Shown here piece by piece: positions 18,552-24,679 of a DNA stretch of 64,000 bases. The translations under genes were made by a program, and so were the position numbers. The stretch is taken from assembly GCF_025643255.1 (NCBI RefSeq), contig NZ_CP087112.1:2666001-2730000 (forward strand), in the 5' to 3' direction. This DNA comes from Halomonas sp. 7T (GTDB taxonomy: Bacteria; Pseudomonadota; Gammaproteobacteria; Pseudomonadales; Halomonadaceae). Under the pieces are notes generated by a model that worked only from the letters and a program-made list of their open reading frames with translations, made no database searches and was not told the origin of the DNA. Numbering within the stretch: position 1 is the first letter of the stretch; each line of letters opens with the position of its first letter.

Positions 18552-18647
18552 GCGCTGGCGATTCTGACAAGCGCGGTGGGTGGCTATCGGTTTGAACCTT
18601 GCGGTATGAATCGAGCAGGCTTATCAGTTAGGATACATTCAATAAAC

Positions 18648-18729
18648 GACACGGGGTGTCCTGGCGTTACGCCAGGGCTGAGATAAGACCCGCTGAACCT
18701 GATCCAGTTCATACCGGCGAAGGGATGTC
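18648..18729 (+). promoter_or_regulatory. TPP riboswitch (THI element) 1
   Basis: Conserved thiamin pyrophosphate aptamer. It contains ACGGGGTGTC, the core GCTGAGATAAGACCC, CTGAACCTGATCCAGTTC, then ATACCGGCGAAGGGA. GACA (18648-18651) and TGTC (18726-18729) can close P1. It lies upstream of the dehydrogenase/monooxygenase pair on the same strand, so those genes are expected to be repressed when TPP is plentiful. Confidence 0.97.
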
Positions 18730-18759
18730 ACACTCATGACCCGCAATGGGGTCGGTATG

Positions 18760-18781
18760 CATCCCTCGCTTTTACGAGGGA
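18760..18781 (+). promoter_or_regulatory. Ribosome-site sequestor of TPP riboswitch 1
   Basis: TCCCTCG (18762-18768) and CGAGGGA (18775-18781) form a perfect 7-bp hairpin whose second arm is the Shine-Dalgarno of the gene starting at 18791. CATCCCT (18760-18766), overlapping the first arm, is also fully complementary to AGGGATG (18721-18727) at the aptamer 3' end. The two pairings exclude each other, so TPP binding should free the sequestor and block translation. Confidence 0.75.
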
Positions 18782-18790
18782 ACTACCACA

Positions 18791-19573
18791 ATGCCAACAA
18801 CACCCACCGCACTTCCGCTTTCCCAGCAACTTGTATTGATTACCGGCGCTAGCCGTGGACTAGGCGAGTGCCTAGCGCACGCCTTTTTAGCCCAAGGCGC
18901 GCGGGTTGTCGTAAACTACTTAAACAGCGCTGATGCGGCGAAAGCCCTAGCGGCAGAAACTCCTGACCACGCTCTGGCGATACAAGCAGACGTACGTGAC
19001 CCTGACGCCGTGAAAGCGATGTTCGCCACCGCGCAAGCCCATTTCGGCATGCCGGTGACAACACTTATCAATAATGCCCTGCCAGATTTTTCGTTTAATG
19101 GCGATGCGCGCCCCTCTCCGGACACCCTTACCTGGGAAAACCTCGACCAGCAGTTGCAAGGCGTGGCACGCGGCGCCCTCAATACTATTCAAGCAGCACT
19201 ACCTGGCATGCGTGAACAGAGGTTCGGACGGATCATTAACATTGGCACTAACCTGTTCCAAAACCCGGTCGTGCCGTATCACGATTACACCGCTGCCAAG
19301 GCGGCACTGCTGTCGCTCACCCGTACTTTTTCTAACGACCTGGGGCCTGACGGCATTACGGTGAATATGCTCTCGGGCGGGCTGCTGCGCACCACTGATG
19401 CCTCAGCGGCGACGCCTGAAGCGGTGTTTGATCTCATCGCGGCCAATACGCCGCTGCGCCGTGTCACTACCCCTGAAGAGTTTGCGGATGCAGCACTGTT
19501 TTTCGCATCGCCTTGGAGCCGGGCTGTCACCGGCCAAAACTTAGTGGTCGATGGCGGCCTGGTTAAAAACTGA
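18791..19573 (+). CDS. TPP-riboswitch-controlled short-chain dehydrogenase/reductase
   Basis: A 260-residue SDR oxidoreductase, presumably NAD(P)H-dependent. The cofactor motif TGASRGLG is near residues 18-25, an INNA stretch near 94, and the catalytic YTAAK at about 168-172. The residue 13 before the catalytic Tyr, normally Ser, is Thr here. The C terminus has VTGQNLVVDGG, as in FabG-like enzymes. Start at the ATG at 18791, next to GAGGGA lying inside the riboswitch hairpin; the in-frame ATG at 18746 would sit in the expression platform. The stop overlaps the next start (TGATG), so the two are coupled. TPP control suggests a role in thiamin salvage; the substrate is unknown. Confidence 0.88.
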   Translation: MPTTPTALPLSQQLVLITGASRGLGECLAHAFLAQGARVVVNYLNSADAAKALAAETPDHALAIQADVRDPDAVKAMFATAQAHFGMPVTTLINNALPDFSFNGDARPSPDTLTWENLDQQLQGVARGALNTIQAALPGMREQRFGRIINIGTNLFQNPVVPYHDYTAAKAALLSLTRTFSNDLGPDGITVNMLSGGLLRTTDASAATPEAVFDLIAANTPLRRVTTPEEFADAALFFASPWSRAVTGQNLVVDGGLVKN

Positions 19574-20865
19574 TGGCTACTCAGATGCATCTCAATCTTT
19601 TTATCATGGGCTGCGGCCACCATAAGGCAGCCTGGCGCGAGCCAAACTCAGCCGCTGAGCGCATGGGGGATATTGGCTACTACGAGTCGCTGGCACGTAC
19701 CGCTGAACGCGGGAAGCTGGACGCCGTCTTCTTTGCCGATGGCCATGCCGCAGGCAACGTAGCCGGAGGGCCGCAGTGGTTTTTAGAACCGTTGACGGCG
19801 CTATCCGCTATGGCGCGGGCTACCGAGCATATCGGCCTGATCTCTACCATATCCAGCACGTTTTTTACCCCGTTTCATGCGGCCAGGATGCTCGCTTCGT
19901 TAGACCATATTTCTAACGGCCGTATGGGGTGGAACTTAGTCACCTCAATGTTTGATAGCGAAGCGCGCAACCATGGTTGGGAGGCTATGCCCCCTCAAGA
20001 GGTGCGCTATGCGCGGGCCGAAGAGTTTGCGCAAACGGTGTTAGCGCTATGGGATTCGTGGGCGGATGATGCGCTGCGCTGCGACCGCCAGGGCCAGTTT
20101 GCCGATCCCAGCAAAGTGCGGCCGATTGATCATTATGGCGCACACTTTTTGGTGGATGGCCCACTCACCGTGCCACGCTCTCCCCAGGGGCACCCCGTCC
20201 TGTTTCAAGCGGGAGCTTCTGAACCGGGGCGCAACTTAGCAGCGCGGTATGCAGAAGCGATTTATGCGGTGGCCTACGACCTCCCCTCGGCGCAAGCCTA
20301 CTACCAAGATATTCAAGCCCGCGTCCGCGCCGCTGGCCGCGCGCCCGTGGCGATTATGCCTGGGTTGGTAACGTATGTAGCATCCACCGAGGACGCCGCA
20401 AAGGCGAAGCAGCGCGAACTGGATGAACGCTTGCCCACCGAGGACTCGCTGCATCAGTTGAGCCAGTTTATCGGCCAAGATTGCCGTCACTGGGAATTGG
20501 ATGCACCACTACCAGAATTGCCACCGCTAGAGGCATTCGCGGGCCCTAAAGGTCGCTATGCCACTATTTTGCGCATTATCGAAAGTGAAACACCCACGCT
20601 ACGACAACTCTTAGGCAGGCTCGCGGCGGGCGGGGGCCACTGCACCATGGTCGGCACGCCAGAGCAGATCGCTGACGAGATGCAGCGCTGGGTAGAGGGA
20701 GGTGGTGCCGACGGCTTCAACCTGATGCCGCCGACGCTGCCAGGCAGCATTGAAGACTTTATTGAGCAGGTCGTCCCACTGCTACAGGCACGCGGGCTAT
20801 TTCGCCGCGAGTATACGGGTAGCACCCTGCGTGATCATTTGGGGCTGGCACGCCCAGCAGCGTAA
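19573..20865 (+). CDS. LLM-class flavin-dependent monooxygenase (NtaA/SnaA/DszA type)
   Basis: A 430-residue luciferase-like-fold monooxygenase that would use FMNH2 and oxygen. Family signs are the N-terminal HHKAAWREP, a FADGHA segment, SLDHISNGRMGWNLVTS, the FQAGASEPGRNLAARYAEAIY core, and a C-terminal DGFNLMPPTLPG. Relatives open nitrogen- or sulfur-containing rings or oxidise amines. Its start overlaps the dehydrogenase stop by one base, so both respond to TPP riboswitch 1. A role in processing a thiamin precursor or breakdown product is inference. A separate flavin reductase would be needed and none is adjacent. Confidence 0.9.
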   Translation: MATQMHLNLFIMGCGHHKAAWREPNSAAERMGDIGYYESLARTAERGKLDAVFFADGHAAGNVAGGPQWFLEPLTALSAMARATEHIGLISTISSTFFTPFHAARMLASLDHISNGRMGWNLVTSMFDSEARNHGWEAMPPQEVRYARAEEFAQTVLALWDSWADDALRCDRQGQFADPSKVRPIDHYGAHFLVDGPLTVPRSPQGHPVLFQAGASEPGRNLAARYAEAIYAVAYDLPSAQAYYQDIQARVRAAGRAPVAIMPGLVTYVASTEDAAKAKQRELDERLPTEDSLHQLSQFIGQDCRHWELDAPLPELPPLEAFAGPKGRYATILRIIESETPTLRQLLGRLAAGGGHCTMVGTPEQIADEMQRWVEGGGADGFNLMPPTLPGSIEDFIEQVVPLLQARGLFRREYTGSTLRDHLGLARPAA

Positions 20866-20869
20866 GCGA

Positions 20870-20911
20870 TGCCGGGCGGCTATATGATGAGCGCGTATTG
20901 CTAGCCCGGCA
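20870..20911. terminator. Hairpin between convergent monooxygenase and symporter genes
   Basis: TGCCGGGC (20870-20877) pairs with GCCCGGCA (20904-20911). No T tract follows on either strand, so termination strength is uncertain. Confidence 0.45.
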
Positions 20912-20912
20912 C

Positions 20913-22358
20913 TTACCCTTTAAAGCGGCGCACCGCCGTATGTAACAGGCCAAAATCGTAGGCTGGGCGTGACGGCAGTATACGCAGTAGCAGTAACGAG
21001 GCCGCCACGGGCACCAGTGCCGCCAGCAGGAAAGACTCCAACAGTGTTGCCGTACTTCCACCGGGGGCAGGGAACATCGCTAGCCCCGCCACCAGCCCCA
21101 GCGCGGTGCTGATGACGGCATTAAGGCCCGTGTAACGGCGATAAAAAAGCCCGAAAAACACCGGAAACGCCGCTGCCGAACAGAGCAAATCAGCCAGCAA
21201 AAATAGGTAAAGCACGCTATAGCCCTGGGAGGCGACCCAGGTAATGGGGATAGCGGCTAACACAATTAACCAACGCGCCAAACTCATCAAGGTGGTATCG
21301 CTGGCCGTGGGAATCAGCCGCCCCATATCCACGGCGATAATGCTGGATGTCGCGCTAATGGTGGAGTCGGCGCTGCTCATCACTAACGCCAAGCCTAGTG
21401 GCACCAACGCTAACGCGAACCATAACGGCACATCCGTCAATAGCACGCTGAACAGCGCCACAGAGCCATCGCCTTCAAGACCCAGCCCCACAAACGCCAG
21501 CCCAAACAGCCCCATCAACGCCACCACGATGAAGCTACACACGCCGCTAATCCAGAAGCCACGGCGCAGCACTTGGGTGTCTTTAGCCGCATAAATACGC
21601 TGCCACGTGCCTTGATAAAAGAGCCCGGTAAGCGCGACGGCAAGAAAGAACGTTAACCCCGCGCGGATACCGCCTATATCGCTCACCTGCAGCAGCTGGG
21701 GCGCACTGTCAGCAAGCCCTGCCAGCGTCGGCGCAACGCCGCCAGCCGCCTGCCAGCCAAACACCAGCAGTAGCCCCAGCAGCGGCATAATCACCAGCAT
21801 CTGGAGCTTGTCAGTATAAATAGACGCGCGCAGCCCGCCATAAAAGGTGTAGATCAAGGTAGCGATCATGACCACGCTGGCGGTTAACCACAGCGGAATA
21901 GGCGCAAGCAACCCCACCATACGCGCCACGGCGGTCAGCCCAGCGGCCAGCAAAATGAACAGGTAAAACAGCATAATCACCAGCGTAAACGCATACATAG
22001 CACGGCCGTACCGATGGATCACGAACTCCGTTAAGCCGTGGCCTTCGGGAATCAGTTCACGCATGCGTCGGCCAAGGGGAATCATCACTAGCCTGGGAAC
22101 CATCGAACCAAACGCGTAGCCGAGTATCGCCCCAATCCCCCCCCAGGTCGCGGCCTGAGCCGGGCCAAACAGAATCCAAGTACCCAGCGTGGTGGCCACC
22201 AGCGTCAGCACCGTGGCGCGGGTATTCTGGCTATTGCGGGCAATGATGTAATCTTCAAGATTATCGCGATGGCGACGAGCATAAAGCAGGCCGGGGAGAG
22301 CCAGCGCAATGGCGCATAGCGACAGCCACAGGCCAGTCCAGATAGGGTCAAGCATCAT
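20913..22358 (-). CDS. TPP-riboswitch-controlled sodium/solute symporter (SSS family)
   Basis: An integral membrane symporter of 481 residues with about 12-13 hydrophobic segments, of the SSS family (PanF/PutP type). Recognisable segments include FGPAQAATWGG in the second region, LFYQGTWQRIYAAKD mid-protein and MSSADSTISATSSI, the sodium-site helix. GAGGA nine bases before the ATG supports 22358 as the start. The gene is controlled by its own TPP riboswitch (22447-22549), so the transported compound is probably thiamin or a precursor. TPP-regulated SSS transporters resembling PanF have been predicted to carry thiamin precursors in other bacteria; the match to them here is inferred. Confidence 0.9.
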   Translation of the reverse strand: MMLDPIWTGLWLSLCAIALALPGLLYARRHRDNLEDYIIARNSQNTRATVLTLVATTLGTWILFGPAQAATWGGIGAILGYAFGSMVPRLVMIPLGRRMRELIPEGHGLTEFVIHRYGRAMYAFTLVIMLFYLFILLAAGLTAVARMVGLLAPIPLWLTASVVMIATLIYTFYGGLRASIYTDKLQMLVIMPLLGLLLVFGWQAAGGVAPTLAGLADSAPQLLQVSDIGGIRAGLTFFLAVALTGLFYQGTWQRIYAAKDTQVLRRGFWISGVCSFIVVALMGLFGLAFVGLGLEGDGSVALFSVLLTDVPLWFALALVPLGLALVMSSADSTISATSSIIAVDMGRLIPTASDTTLMSLARWLIVLAAIPITWVASQGYSVLYLFLLADLLCSAAAFPVFFGLFYRRYTGLNAVISTALGLVAGLAMFPAPGGSTATLLESFLLAALVPVAASLLLLRILPSRPAYDFGLLHTAVRRFKG

Positions 22359-22368
22359 GAAAGCGGAT

Positions 22369-22436
22369 CCTCTTTGCCTGTATTGTTAGGCCGGGGTGTG
22401 CGGTGAGCGCACGGCAGGCAGGCGAAAGCAAAGAGG
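22369..22436 (-). promoter_or_regulatory. Ribosome-site sequestor of TPP riboswitch 2
   Basis: On the transcript strand CCTCTTTGC (22428-22436) pairs perfectly with GCAAAGAGG (22369-22377), and the second arm contains the AGAGG ribosome site of the symporter gene. A GTGCG/CGCAC hairpin is nested between them. No T tract follows, which points to translational rather than transcriptional control. Confidence 0.7.
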
Positions 22437-22446
22437 GTGTATTGGT

Positions 22447-22549
22447 TGGCTACATCCTTCCCTTCGCCGGCATGACCCGGATCAGGTTCTAAGGGTTACC
22501 AACGCCAAATGGCGGTGGAGTCTCAGCCAGTGCAGGCTCCCCTAGGACA
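22447..22549 (-). promoter_or_regulatory. TPP riboswitch (THI element) 2
   Basis: On the reverse strand: AGGGGAGCC, then GGCTGAGACTCCACC, an extra CGCCATTTGGCG-type P3a hairpin, ACCCTTAGAACCTGATCCGG and CATGCCGGCGAAGGGAAGG. These are the canonical TPP-aptamer cores. GTCCT and AGGAT can close P1. It precedes the symporter gene and is about 30 bases from a 17-base-spaced promoter. Confidence 0.97.
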
Positions 22550-22555
22550 GCCGCT

Positions 22556-22584
22556 ACCGTAGGTGCTGAGCCGGGCGTTGTCAA
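22556..22584 (-). promoter_or_regulatory. Promoter of the riboswitch-symporter transcript
   Basis: Reverse strand TTGACA (22579-22584), a 17-base spacer, TACGGT (22556-22561). The -35 is perfect, the -10 weak. The predicted start near 22549 coincides with the beginning of the TPP aptamer, as is usual for riboswitch transcripts. Confidence 0.7.
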
Positions 22585-22645: not shown

Positions 22646-23587
22646 CTACCCCAATATTCGCTCGATAAGATAGTGATAAAGAGGAATGCCCAGCATAACG
22701 TTGAGCGGAAAGGTGACACCGAGTGATGCCAGCATCGCGAGACCAATATTGGCTTCGGGAATAGCGGCACGCATCGCTGCCGGGGCGGCAATATAAGAAG
22801 CGCTTGCCGCCAGTGCTGCCAAAATAACCACTGAGCCTAACGGCAGCCCTAGCGCAGCACCCAGGCCTATGCCGAGGAGCGACAACAACACTGGCATCAC
22901 CAGGGCGAATGTCACCAAACGCCATTGATGCCAAGGCATCGGCCGTAAGGTTTGCGCAGCGGTAAGCCCCATCTCCAGCAAAAATAGCGCCAGTACGCCT
23001 TTGAAGGCGCCGGTGAAGAGCGCGGTGACCTCCTCTCCTTGAAAAGGCCCATAAAGTGCTCCGATCACCACCCCGCCTGCGAGCAAAATCACGCCCCGAT
23101 TGGTCAACGTTTCATGCCAGAGCTTGCGGGTGCTCTCTTTAACCGCAGCACCTTGGTAACGCCTATAGAGCGCGATAGCCACCATAATCGCCGGCAGCTC
23201 CATAGCCACTAAATAGAGAGTGACCTCGCTACCGACCGCTAGCTGGCGCGCTTCCACATAGGCCAGCGCCACGGCAAACGTACCTGCACTTACCGAACCA
23301 TAGTGCGCGGCAATACTCGCACTATCCGCCGCAGAAAGGCGAACCCAGCGCCGCAGTGCAGGCATCAGCATTAGCGATGTGATTGCCGAGAGTAGCGCGA
23401 CGCCTAACAGTTCGGGCACCAATCCCCAATGAATATTACCGTGCAGCGCCATGCCCCCCTTTAAGCCAATCGTCAGCATTAACAGTAGGCTTAACGTATC
23501 GTAAGTCGCTTTGGGCACCTGCAGGTCGGACTTCACCGCGCCTGCGATGAGCCCCAGTAAGAAAAACATCACCACAATATCTGGCAT
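22646..23587 (-). CDS. sbtA: SbtA-type sodium-dependent bicarbonate transporter
   Basis: Predicted inner-membrane sodium/bicarbonate symporter (SbtA, DUF897 family), 313 residues with about ten hydrophobic segments. The hallmark KSDLQVPKATYDTLSLLLM lies at the start of the second segment, and LLAGGVVIGAL and AASASYIAAPAAMRAAIPEAN appear in the C-terminal half. The start is the ATG at 23587 (MPDIVVMF): TGGAG lies eight bases upstream, whereas the GTG three codons earlier overlaps that site. It is divergent from a LysR regulator, as often seen for this family. No carboxysome or RuBisCO genes are in the window, so a heterotrophic bicarbonate-supply or pH role is likely. Confidence 0.88.
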   Translation of the reverse strand: MPDIVVMFFLLGLIAGAVKSDLQVPKATYDTLSLLLMLTIGLKGGMALHGNIHWGLVPELLGVALLSAITSLMLMPALRRWVRLSAADSASIAAHYGSVSAGTFAVALAYVEARQLAVGSEVTLYLVAMELPAIMVAIALYRRYQGAAVKESTRKLWHETLTNRGVILLAGGVVIGALYGPFQGEEVTALFTGAFKGVLALFLLEMGLTAAQTLRPMPWHQWRLVTFALVMPVLLSLLGIGLGAALGLPLGSVVILAALAASASYIAAPAAMRAAIPEANIGLAMLASLGVTFPLNVMLGIPLYHYLIERILG

Positions 23588-23668
23588 TGCCGACACTCCA
23601 CAGCTTTTAAAGAGGCTGCATTTTGCGAGGATTTACGTGAGACAACTAATAATAACTTGTAAGATAGT

Positions 23669-23686
23669 CATAGATAATCATCTATG
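23669..23686. promoter_or_regulatory. Inverted repeat between sbtA and its LysR regulator
   Basis: CATAGAT-AATC-ATCTATG, 7-bp perfect arms with a 4-base centre, lying in the divergent promoter region 43 bases before the regulator start. This is a good candidate operator for the LysR protein or another regulator of sbtA. Confidence 0.5.
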
Positions 23687-23728
23687 CGAGTCGCTATAAA
23701 AACGCGTGCTTCAGGAGAAGTTGGGTTC

Positions 23729-24679
23729 ATGAACATCCGCCATCTAACCTTTAGGTTGCTACAAGTTTATGTCACCGTCGTGCGCTGCGGGTCAATCAGC
23801 GAAGCTGCAAGACAGCTGCATCTCACCCAGCCGACCGTATCACAACAGTTAAAACGACTGAGCGAAGCGGTTGGCATGCCTTTGCTAGAGCACCATTTAC
23901 AAGGGTTGACGATGACGGCCACTGGGCAGGCGCTGTATCACGTTAGCCGCGATGTATTAGGCCGCTTTGATGACTTTGCCGATCAGCTAAGTGAATTTCA
24001 GCAAGGCAGCAAAGGCCGCTTTAGCATTGCTCTAGTGAATACAGCTCAATATGTGTTGCCACGTTTGTTAGGCCCGTTTAGCCAAGCGTTTCCCGACGTA
24101 GATGTCACGGTTCACATTGGCAACCGCCGCCAAGTGTTAGCAAGGTTTGAACGCCAAGAAGACGATCTTTATGTCTTTAGCCACCCACCAGCGCTCGCCC
24201 ATGCAGTGGCAGCACGCTTTATGCGCAATCCTCTGGTGGCCATCGCGGCGACAGACCACCCGCTTACACAGCACGCCACCCTATCCATGGAACAGTTGCT
24301 AAATGAGCGCTTGCTGCTGCGCGAACCAGGCTCAGCCACGCGCATGCTATTAGAAAGTTGGCTTCAAGAGCATGGTTTAACCATGAAAAAGACCCTGCAA
24401 ATGGCCAGCAATGAAGCGATTCGCGTGGGCGTCGCAGCAAGAATGGGGGTCGCTGTCTTATCCGAGCATGTGCTGCCCAAAGAGCACCCTGAAATTTCGA
24501 TACTGCCAATCGAAGGGTTCCCGATTGAAAGCCACTGGCAGATGATTGCGCGCAACGACCAGCGGCTTCCCCAGTCTGCTCAGCGCTTTCTCCACTATGT
24601 GCACGAACATCTCGTCCATTGGATTGAACCACGCTTTCTCTGCAATGAATTAGATACGTTGCTTTCAAAAAGCGCATAA
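23729..24679 (+). CDS. LysR-family regulator (probable sbtA regulator, CbbR/CysB-like)
   Basis: A 316-residue LysR-type transcription factor with an N-terminal winged helix-turn-helix (LLQVYVTVVRCGSISEAARQ, LTQPTVSQQLKRL at about 20-60) and a C-terminal effector domain. I prefer the ATG at 23729 (MNIRHLTFRLLQ) to the frame opening at 23684, because family similarity begins there and AGGAG lies upstream, although at an 11-base distance. It is divergent from sbtA with a palindrome between them, so it probably controls that transporter. The effector is not readable from sequence. Confidence 0.88.
   Translation: MNIRHLTFRLLQVYVTVVRCGSISEAARQLHLTQPTVSQQLKRLSEAVGMPLLEHHLQGLTMTATGQALYHVSRDVLGRFDDFADQLSEFQQGSKGRFSIALVNTAQYVLPRLLGPFSQAFPDVDVTVHIGNRRQVLARFERQEDDLYVFSHPPALAHAVAARFMRNPLVAIAATDHPLTQHATLSMEQLLNERLLLREPGSATRMLLESWLQEHGLTMKKTLQMASNEAIRVGVAARMGVAVLSEHVLPKEHPEISILPIEGFPIESHWQMIARNDQRLPQSAQRFLHYVHEHLVHWIEPRFLCNELDTLLSKSA

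Follow-up and report, generated by a model that had tools for sequence, protein, structure and literature searches.

In a 64,000-nucleotide stretch of the genome of Halomonas sp. 7T (contig NZ_CP087112.1, positions 2,666,001 to 2,730,000; hereafter, the window), 2 thiamin pyrophosphate (TPP) riboswitches enclose a compact module encoding a short-chain dehydrogenase/reductase (SDR), a luciferase-like monooxygenase (LLM), and a sodium/solute symporter of the SSS family. We infer the substrate, both reactions, and the direction of transport, and put the probability that this module salvages the pyrimidine half of thiamin (vitamin B1) at about 60%. Most likely, the module lets the cell recover the B1 pyrimidine from compounds that would otherwise be unusable. 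There is good support for its link to thiamin; the pyrimidine rather than the thiazole side is moderately favored, and the precise reaction of the enzyme pair is put forward as a hypothesis. A conserved, mobile, TPP-controlled oxygenase–reductase pair tied to the loss of thiC would extend the range of B1 breakdown products that cells can use, and the SDR–LLM pair constitutes a 2-enzyme system that can be assayed directly.

Rfam cmscan analysis of the whole window at the gathering threshold identified 2 TPP riboswitches (RF00059) on opposite strands, facing inward across positions 18642–22553 (Table 1). The initial annotation, made from the sequence alone, had described 2 canonical TPP aptamers in this arrangement, the SDR and LLM genes behind one and the symporter gene behind the other, with no classical thi gene between them; the aptamer scores, gene coordinates, and family models agree with this description throughout. 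The SDR and LLM reading frames share the sequence TGATG, in which the SDR stop codon TGA overlaps the LLM start codon ATG. We set the SDR start at 18791, behind a GAGGGA ribosome-binding site; the automatic list of open reading frames begins this gene at 18746. The window genome contains 4 TPP riboswitches in all, the third and fourth being located upstream of tenA-thiC (assigned by Pfam matches) and of thiM-thiE (named by our own reading and by 52% and 54% matches to the annotated thiM and thiE of Neorhizobium). Given these genes, the organism should produce the pyrimidine itself and possess the usual salvage genes besides.

ViennaRNA folds, in which the part downstream of the aptamer stands in for the TPP-bound state, suggest that both leaders are translational OFF switches. 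In one predicted fold of the SDR leader, the 3′-edge aptamer sequence GGGATG (18722–18727) pairs with GCATCCC, loosening GAGGGA; in the other, TCCCTCG (18762–18768) pairs with CGAGGGA (18775–18781), hiding the ribosome site that lies within it. The mean unpaired probability of GAGGGA is 0.40 in the whole leader versus 0.01 in the downstream part alone. Switching appears less sharp in the symporter leader, where the corresponding values for AGAGGA are 0.42 and 0.16. A scan for stretches of at least 6 contiguous complementary bases linking the 3′ end of the symporter aptamer with its leader was negative, so the alternative fold comes in this case from the free-energy calculation by itself.

To assess the conservation of the enzyme pair, we scanned GTDB genomes with the LLM, which returned at least 588 relatives, the best 80 of which were examined. 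Neighboring genes were placed by tblastn, since longest-open-reading-frame calls gave shadow frames in GC-rich loci. Among the 80 loci, 20 encode an LLM 65% to 95% identical to that of the window, and the SDR gene lies directly upstream in all 20, with an identity of 67% to 95% in 19 of them. At the other 60 loci (LLM identity of at most 52%), no SDR exceeds 32% identity, 2 loci (L035 and L038) having a 28% to 29% SDR directly upstream, and a TPP-like pattern is found at 3 (L035, L051, and L084), never directly ahead of the LLM. An Rfam-matched TPP riboswitch precedes the SDR at 19 of the 20 close loci, at 15 of the 16 additional loci examined, and in the 2 plasmid-borne copies (36/38), or at 35 of 37 distinct loci besides the window when L183, which lies on the same contig as L015, is counted once. 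According to their record titles, the loci derive from Halomonas, Marinobacter, Candidimonas, Azoarcus, Rhizobium, Pseudochrobactrum, Kocuria and other Micrococcaceae, Cryobacterium, Corynebacterium, and Rhodococcus, among others. In the LLM tree, a branch with a support of 100 separates all 26 module rows from 10 chosen relatives. The distribution is patchy, with 12 positives among the 151 genomes of the window's family and 13 among the 120 of the Marinobacter genus, which, together with the plasmid copies, speaks for horizontal transfer. More distant pairs in the same TPP–SDR–LLM order are carried on 2 Bacillota plasmids, from Mesobacillus (L302; SDR 47%, LLM 52%) and Exiguobacterium (L303; SDR 49%), which led us to abandon a simple identity cut-off for the family. 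Individual loci show peculiarities of their own: in Kocuria rosea (L083:5193–5965), tblastn covers the SDR in 2 overlapping segments (48% and 84%), suggestive of a broken frame; on the Exiguobacterium plasmid (L303:6815–7877), the LLM frame behind the TPP riboswitch and SDR is in 2 pieces and unannotated; and at L186 (G017), from the window's family, the pair has neither a TPP riboswitch nor the symporter beside it.

The initial annotation had also proposed a 3-gene thiamin-salvage unit. The combination of a TPP-controlled importer with 2 enzymes was upheld, whereas the symporter proved not to be obligate, with no match to it at L009, L017, L021, L022, L052, L083, and L186. It lies near the pair at 12 of the 20 close loci and at 16 of 17 in a further locus set. 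The Halomonas relatives have it downstream and convergent; in Marinobacter and Candidimonas, it is upstream and divergent. Co-occurrence in relatives, which had been set beforehand as a test, was largely borne out: besides the constant association of SDR and LLM at the close loci, the symporter (E-value of 1e-100 or better) is present in exactly the 13 Marinobacter-genus genomes that carry the LLM (1e-120 or better) and is absent from the remaining 107. Other transporters were sought and found at only 2 of the symporter-less loci. At the actinobacterial L052, a TPP-controlled YkoE/CbiQ set, divergent from the pair, occupies the symporter's place, and at L017 (Cryobacterium), the pair is followed by thiE, a thiO-like gene, thiG, thiF, and a TPP-controlled YkoE-type gene. 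Matches of the symporter to solved structures are weak (best 2.3e-5). It is likely a ThiV-like importer of a pyrimidine vitamer. ThiV is described in passages of PMC11452348 as a SAR11 sodium:solute symporter with a TPP riboswitch upstream, known from auxotrophs for 4-amino-5-hydroxymethyl-2-methylpyrimidine (HMP). The window symporter shares both the SSS family and the riboswitch with ThiV, but is tied to 2 enzymes, occurs also in genomes with thiC, and is likened to it by family rather than by the SAR11_0811 sequence.

Which half of thiamin is concerned, pyrimidine or thiazole, had been left open in the initial annotation. The distribution of thiC and thiG favors the former and makes the latter less probable. 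A set of 20 module genomes includes 12 with a ThiC match and 18 with full-length ThiG: both are present in 11 genomes, ThiG only in 7, ThiC only in 1 (L020), and neither in 1 (L014), the last 2 being metagenome-assembled genomes. Thus, 7 of the 8 module genomes without thiC retain thiG, and because thiC is lost yet thiG kept, the pattern constitutes moderate evidence for the pyrimidine side. In the Marinobacter genus, ThiC is unmatched in 9 of the 13 module genomes versus 3 of the 107 others (Fisher 1.4e-8, for genomes that are not independent); these 3 module-free genomes are assemblies of 2.1, 3.2, and 2.2 Mb, one of which (G221) also has no rpoB match. Marinobacter F3R11 (G162) and Candidimonas (G160) have no thiC, and no TPP riboswitch beyond the 2 of the module was found in either genome when 113 of the 283 and 113 of the 227 first-look candidates, respectively, were scored; some module genomes carry a third. 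At 5 Marinobacter loci (L010, L012, L172, L173, and L175), thiG directly follows the LLM on the same strand, and in the 2 of these genomes that were searched (G154 and G156), it is the only full-length ThiG match.

Several observations weigh against the assignment to pyrimidine salvage. An rpoB tree of 110 of the 120 Marinobacter-genus genomes implies 3 changes of the module and at least 5 of thiC; thiC was lost in only 2 module clades, each of which keeps 1 thiC-bearing member. An independent-pairs test yields 3 pairs (on average 1.6 in the same direction and 0 in the opposite) and cannot reach 0.05. When thiC loss was simulated on this tree, the observed correlation arose in 0 of 4,000 runs and the observed overlap in 199. 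The contrast shrinks if thiC is broken in 4 module-free genomes (G204, G224, G246, and G281) that were counted as thiC-positive despite a ThiC match that is partial or in pieces. In the Micrococcaceae, the family of Kocuria (G170), ThiC is unmatched in 91 of 149 genomes, a high level of pyrimidine-branch loss, so that L009 and L083 carry no weight for the thiC link, and an argument from this family was rejected. The background rates cover the Marinobacter genus and the Micrococcaceae. All 7 Halomonas genomes examined, including that of the window, keep thiC. Rfam found no TPP riboswitch at 2 of the 37 distinct SDR–LLM loci (L020 and L186); 1 of the 3 Caballeronia records examined has an SDR (65%) without thi genes or a riboswitch; and symporter relatives at 61% to 68% identity occur in many other bacteria. 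Finally, the TENA_THI-4 domain (PF03070) is matched above threshold in 25 of the 28 module genomes, so one conceivable substrate, 4-amino-5-aminomethyl-2-methylpyrimidine (AmMP), may already be covered.

The nearest solved relatives of the LLM are BdsA/DszA (309 bits) and YtnJ (307 bits). Its AlphaFold model (pLDDT 82.4; weak loops at 57–63 and 167–195) has BdsA as the top Foldseek match (TM 0.86) and TM values of 0.79 to 0.86 to BdsA, CmoJ, 3SDO, EmoA, DmoA, and RcaE, with 3SDO being an NtaA-like structure. The window LLM thus resembles the NtaA/DmoA/DszA-type enzymes, including YtnJ/CmoJ and RcaE, in family model and fold, and the same cosubstrates are expected. It differs from them in sequence (32% to 40% identity in structural alignments), in forming a clade of its own versus the 10 tree relatives, and in being under TPP control, whereas the named relatives are catabolic or assimilatory. 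NtaA, EmoA, and DmoA oxidize the carbon next to nitrogen or sulfur, releasing an aldehyde. As for the SDR, R22, T153, Y166, and K170 are invariant in 18 sequences, that of the window included; judging by the customary motif spacing, Tyr166 and Lys170 would belong to the catalytic Ser-Tyr-Lys, with Thr153 at the usual Ser position, and an arginine in the glycine loop, as Arg22 would be, marks NADPH use. The SDR is probably a reductase of an aldehyde (or ketone). Rodionov et al. (2002) reportedly described oarX, a TPP-regulated 3-oxoacyl-acyl carrier protein (ACP)-reductase-like gene, which would have the same annotation and control as the window SDR; we know of no LLM partner for oarX. An oxygenase of the LLM type acting on a vitamin has a precedent in RcaE, a riboflavin monooxygenase that, according to passages of PMC12746152, oxidatively removes the ribityl chain of riboflavin.

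SDR orthologs are also found in thiamin operons without the LLM. On plasmids of Neorhizobium and Gemmobacter, the ortholog (67% and 63%, respectively) is the last gene of a thiM-thiE-thiD-SDR series with a TPP riboswitch in front, and there is no LLM match within the 12.7-kb stretch around it; upstream of the SDR of Rhizobium sp. 11515TR lie a TPP riboswitch and the genes for ThiM and ThiE. ThiM, ThiE, and ThiD are the enzymes that salvage and join both halves of thiamin.

We envisage that, when TPP is scarce, the ribosome sites of both leaders would become accessible, allowing synthesis of the importer, SDR, and LLM. The symporter would import a pyrimidine vitamer, and the LLM, using reduced flavin mononucleotide (FMNH2) and O2, would oxidize the carbon adjoining nitrogen or sulfur, as its relatives do, thereby cleaving a pyrimidinylmethyl-N or -S compound to yield 4-amino-2-methylpyrimidine-5-carbaldehyde plus the remainder of the molecule. 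Because such cleavage gives the aldehyde of HMP, a reductase would be needed next, and the SDR would supply HMP for use by ThiD and ThiE. Candidate substrates include N-formyl-AmMP (FAMP), AmMP, thiaminase adducts, and oxidized thiamin, AmMP being a lesser candidate than FAMP because TenA is usually present. The known TenA/YlmB pathway salvages AmMP and FAMP hydrolytically. The module, as favored here, would likewise recover HMP from degraded thiamin, but by an oxygenase and a reductase, and mostly alongside TenA. A role of the pair as a TenA replacement was rejected on the basis of the PF03070 matches; the unit itself encodes SDR, LLM, and symporter, with tenA located elsewhere in the window genome, and in Candidimonas (G160), neither thiC nor tenA was found. 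It is tentatively suggested that the pair performs O2-dependent flavin cleavage at the pyrimidine methylene followed by reduction of the aldehyde to HMP, and that, having spread horizontally over 3 phyla, it may make thiC dispensable. FAMP, AmMP, and HMP are named as pyrimidine vitamers, and FAMP and HMP quantified in coastal water, in passages of PMC10881298; most marine microorganisms have no complete B1 pathway, pyrimidine auxotrophy being the commonest form (abstract of PMC11452348). Literature searches retrieved no account of an LLM or SDR under TPP control in bacterial thiamin metabolism: passages of PMC3766115, whose gene lists stand in its supplements, name no such gene, and passages of PMC9870897, PMC12442306, PMC10789242, and PMC7793946 contain nothing on the pair.

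Alternatively, the LLM and SDR might act on the thiazole side, repairing an oxidized thiazole (for example, thiazole-acetaldehyde or an S-oxidized form) to hydroxyethylthiazole for ThiM. The position of the SDR after thiM-thiE-thiD in Neorhizobium and Gemmobacter, that of thiG after the LLM in Marinobacter, and the TPP-controlled thiM-thiE of the window genome would all fit; but among the 20 module genomes, loss falls mostly on thiC, not thiG, and the SSS family has a precedent for HMP transport in ThiV (passages of PMC11452348), which leaves thiazole repair unlikely. Even less weight falls on detoxification by the pair of an antivitamin, such as bacimethrin, methoxythiamin, or oxythiamin, entering through the same importer: the patchy, partly plasmid-borne distribution is what such a function might produce, but induction solely at low TPP would be an odd control for it, and the SDR, when without the LLM, sits in salvage operons.

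Two further explanations appear very improbable. The genes may serve an unrelated metabolism (of sulfur compounds, amines, or substrates of TPP enzymes) that came under TPP control, as the names of the solved LLM relatives, sulfur and amine monooxygenases, and the acetolactate synthase near the Pseudochrobactrum copy could suggest; against this, thiMED operons repeatedly contain the SDR, and thiE, thiG, and YkoE-type genes are found near the pair. Marginally less probable still is a ThiC-independent route making HMP from a central metabolite with O2: it would account for the retention of thiG in module genomes without thiC and for the Candidimonas genome with neither thiC nor tenA found, but 2 enzymes are few for building a pyrimidine, and the importer often travels with the pair.

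Table 1. Features of the TPP-controlled module and associated tRNA genes (window positions unless a locus is given).
Feature	Position	Strand	Evidence
TPP riboswitch aptamer (RF00059) of the SDR–LLM operon	18642–18742	+	cmscan 67.4 bits (gathering 54.3), E 4.3e-11
SDR–LLM expression platform (predicted)	18722–18781	+	ViennaRNA folds
Classical SDR, annotated as 3-oxoacyl-ACP reductase	18791–19573	+	NF006393, 439 bits (cut-off 292)
LLM, 2-component FMN monooxygenase, NtaA/DmoA/DszA branch	19573–20865	+	TIGR03860, 532 bits (cut-off 280)
SSS-family sodium/solute symporter	20913–22358	-	Pfam SSF PF00474, 70 bits, over cut-off; TIGR00813 below cut-off
Symporter leader hairpin (predicted)	22366–22437	-	ViennaRNA fold downstream of aptamer: CCCTCTTTGC pairs with GCAAAGAGG, the latter holding the ribosome site
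TPP riboswitch aptamer (RF00059) of the symporter	22442–22553	-	cmscan 72.8 bits (gathering 54.3), E 2e-12
tRNA genes ahead of the SDR–LLM operon	L011:4308–4892, L015:4637–4921, L019:4036–4781, L181:5052–5412, L182:8594–9278, L183:9306–9590, L184:197–269

The surroundings of the module offer some additional observations. In one group of Halomonas, tRNA genes, mostly in tandem, lie just ahead of the SDR–LLM operon, where they may mark an insertion site. A tmRNA gene is located about 2.2 kb upstream in the window and at L023, and in a relative of the window genome, the same neighborhood contains a HEARO RNA (RF02033, 115.5 bits, L177:788–1021). Beyond the symporter riboswitch, the window encodes a divergent pair consisting of an Sbt_1 (PF05982) Na+-dependent bicarbonate transporter (22646–23596, minus strand) and a LysR regulator (23684–24679, plus strand), the best NCBIfam match of the latter being the CbbR model, at a score below its cut-off.

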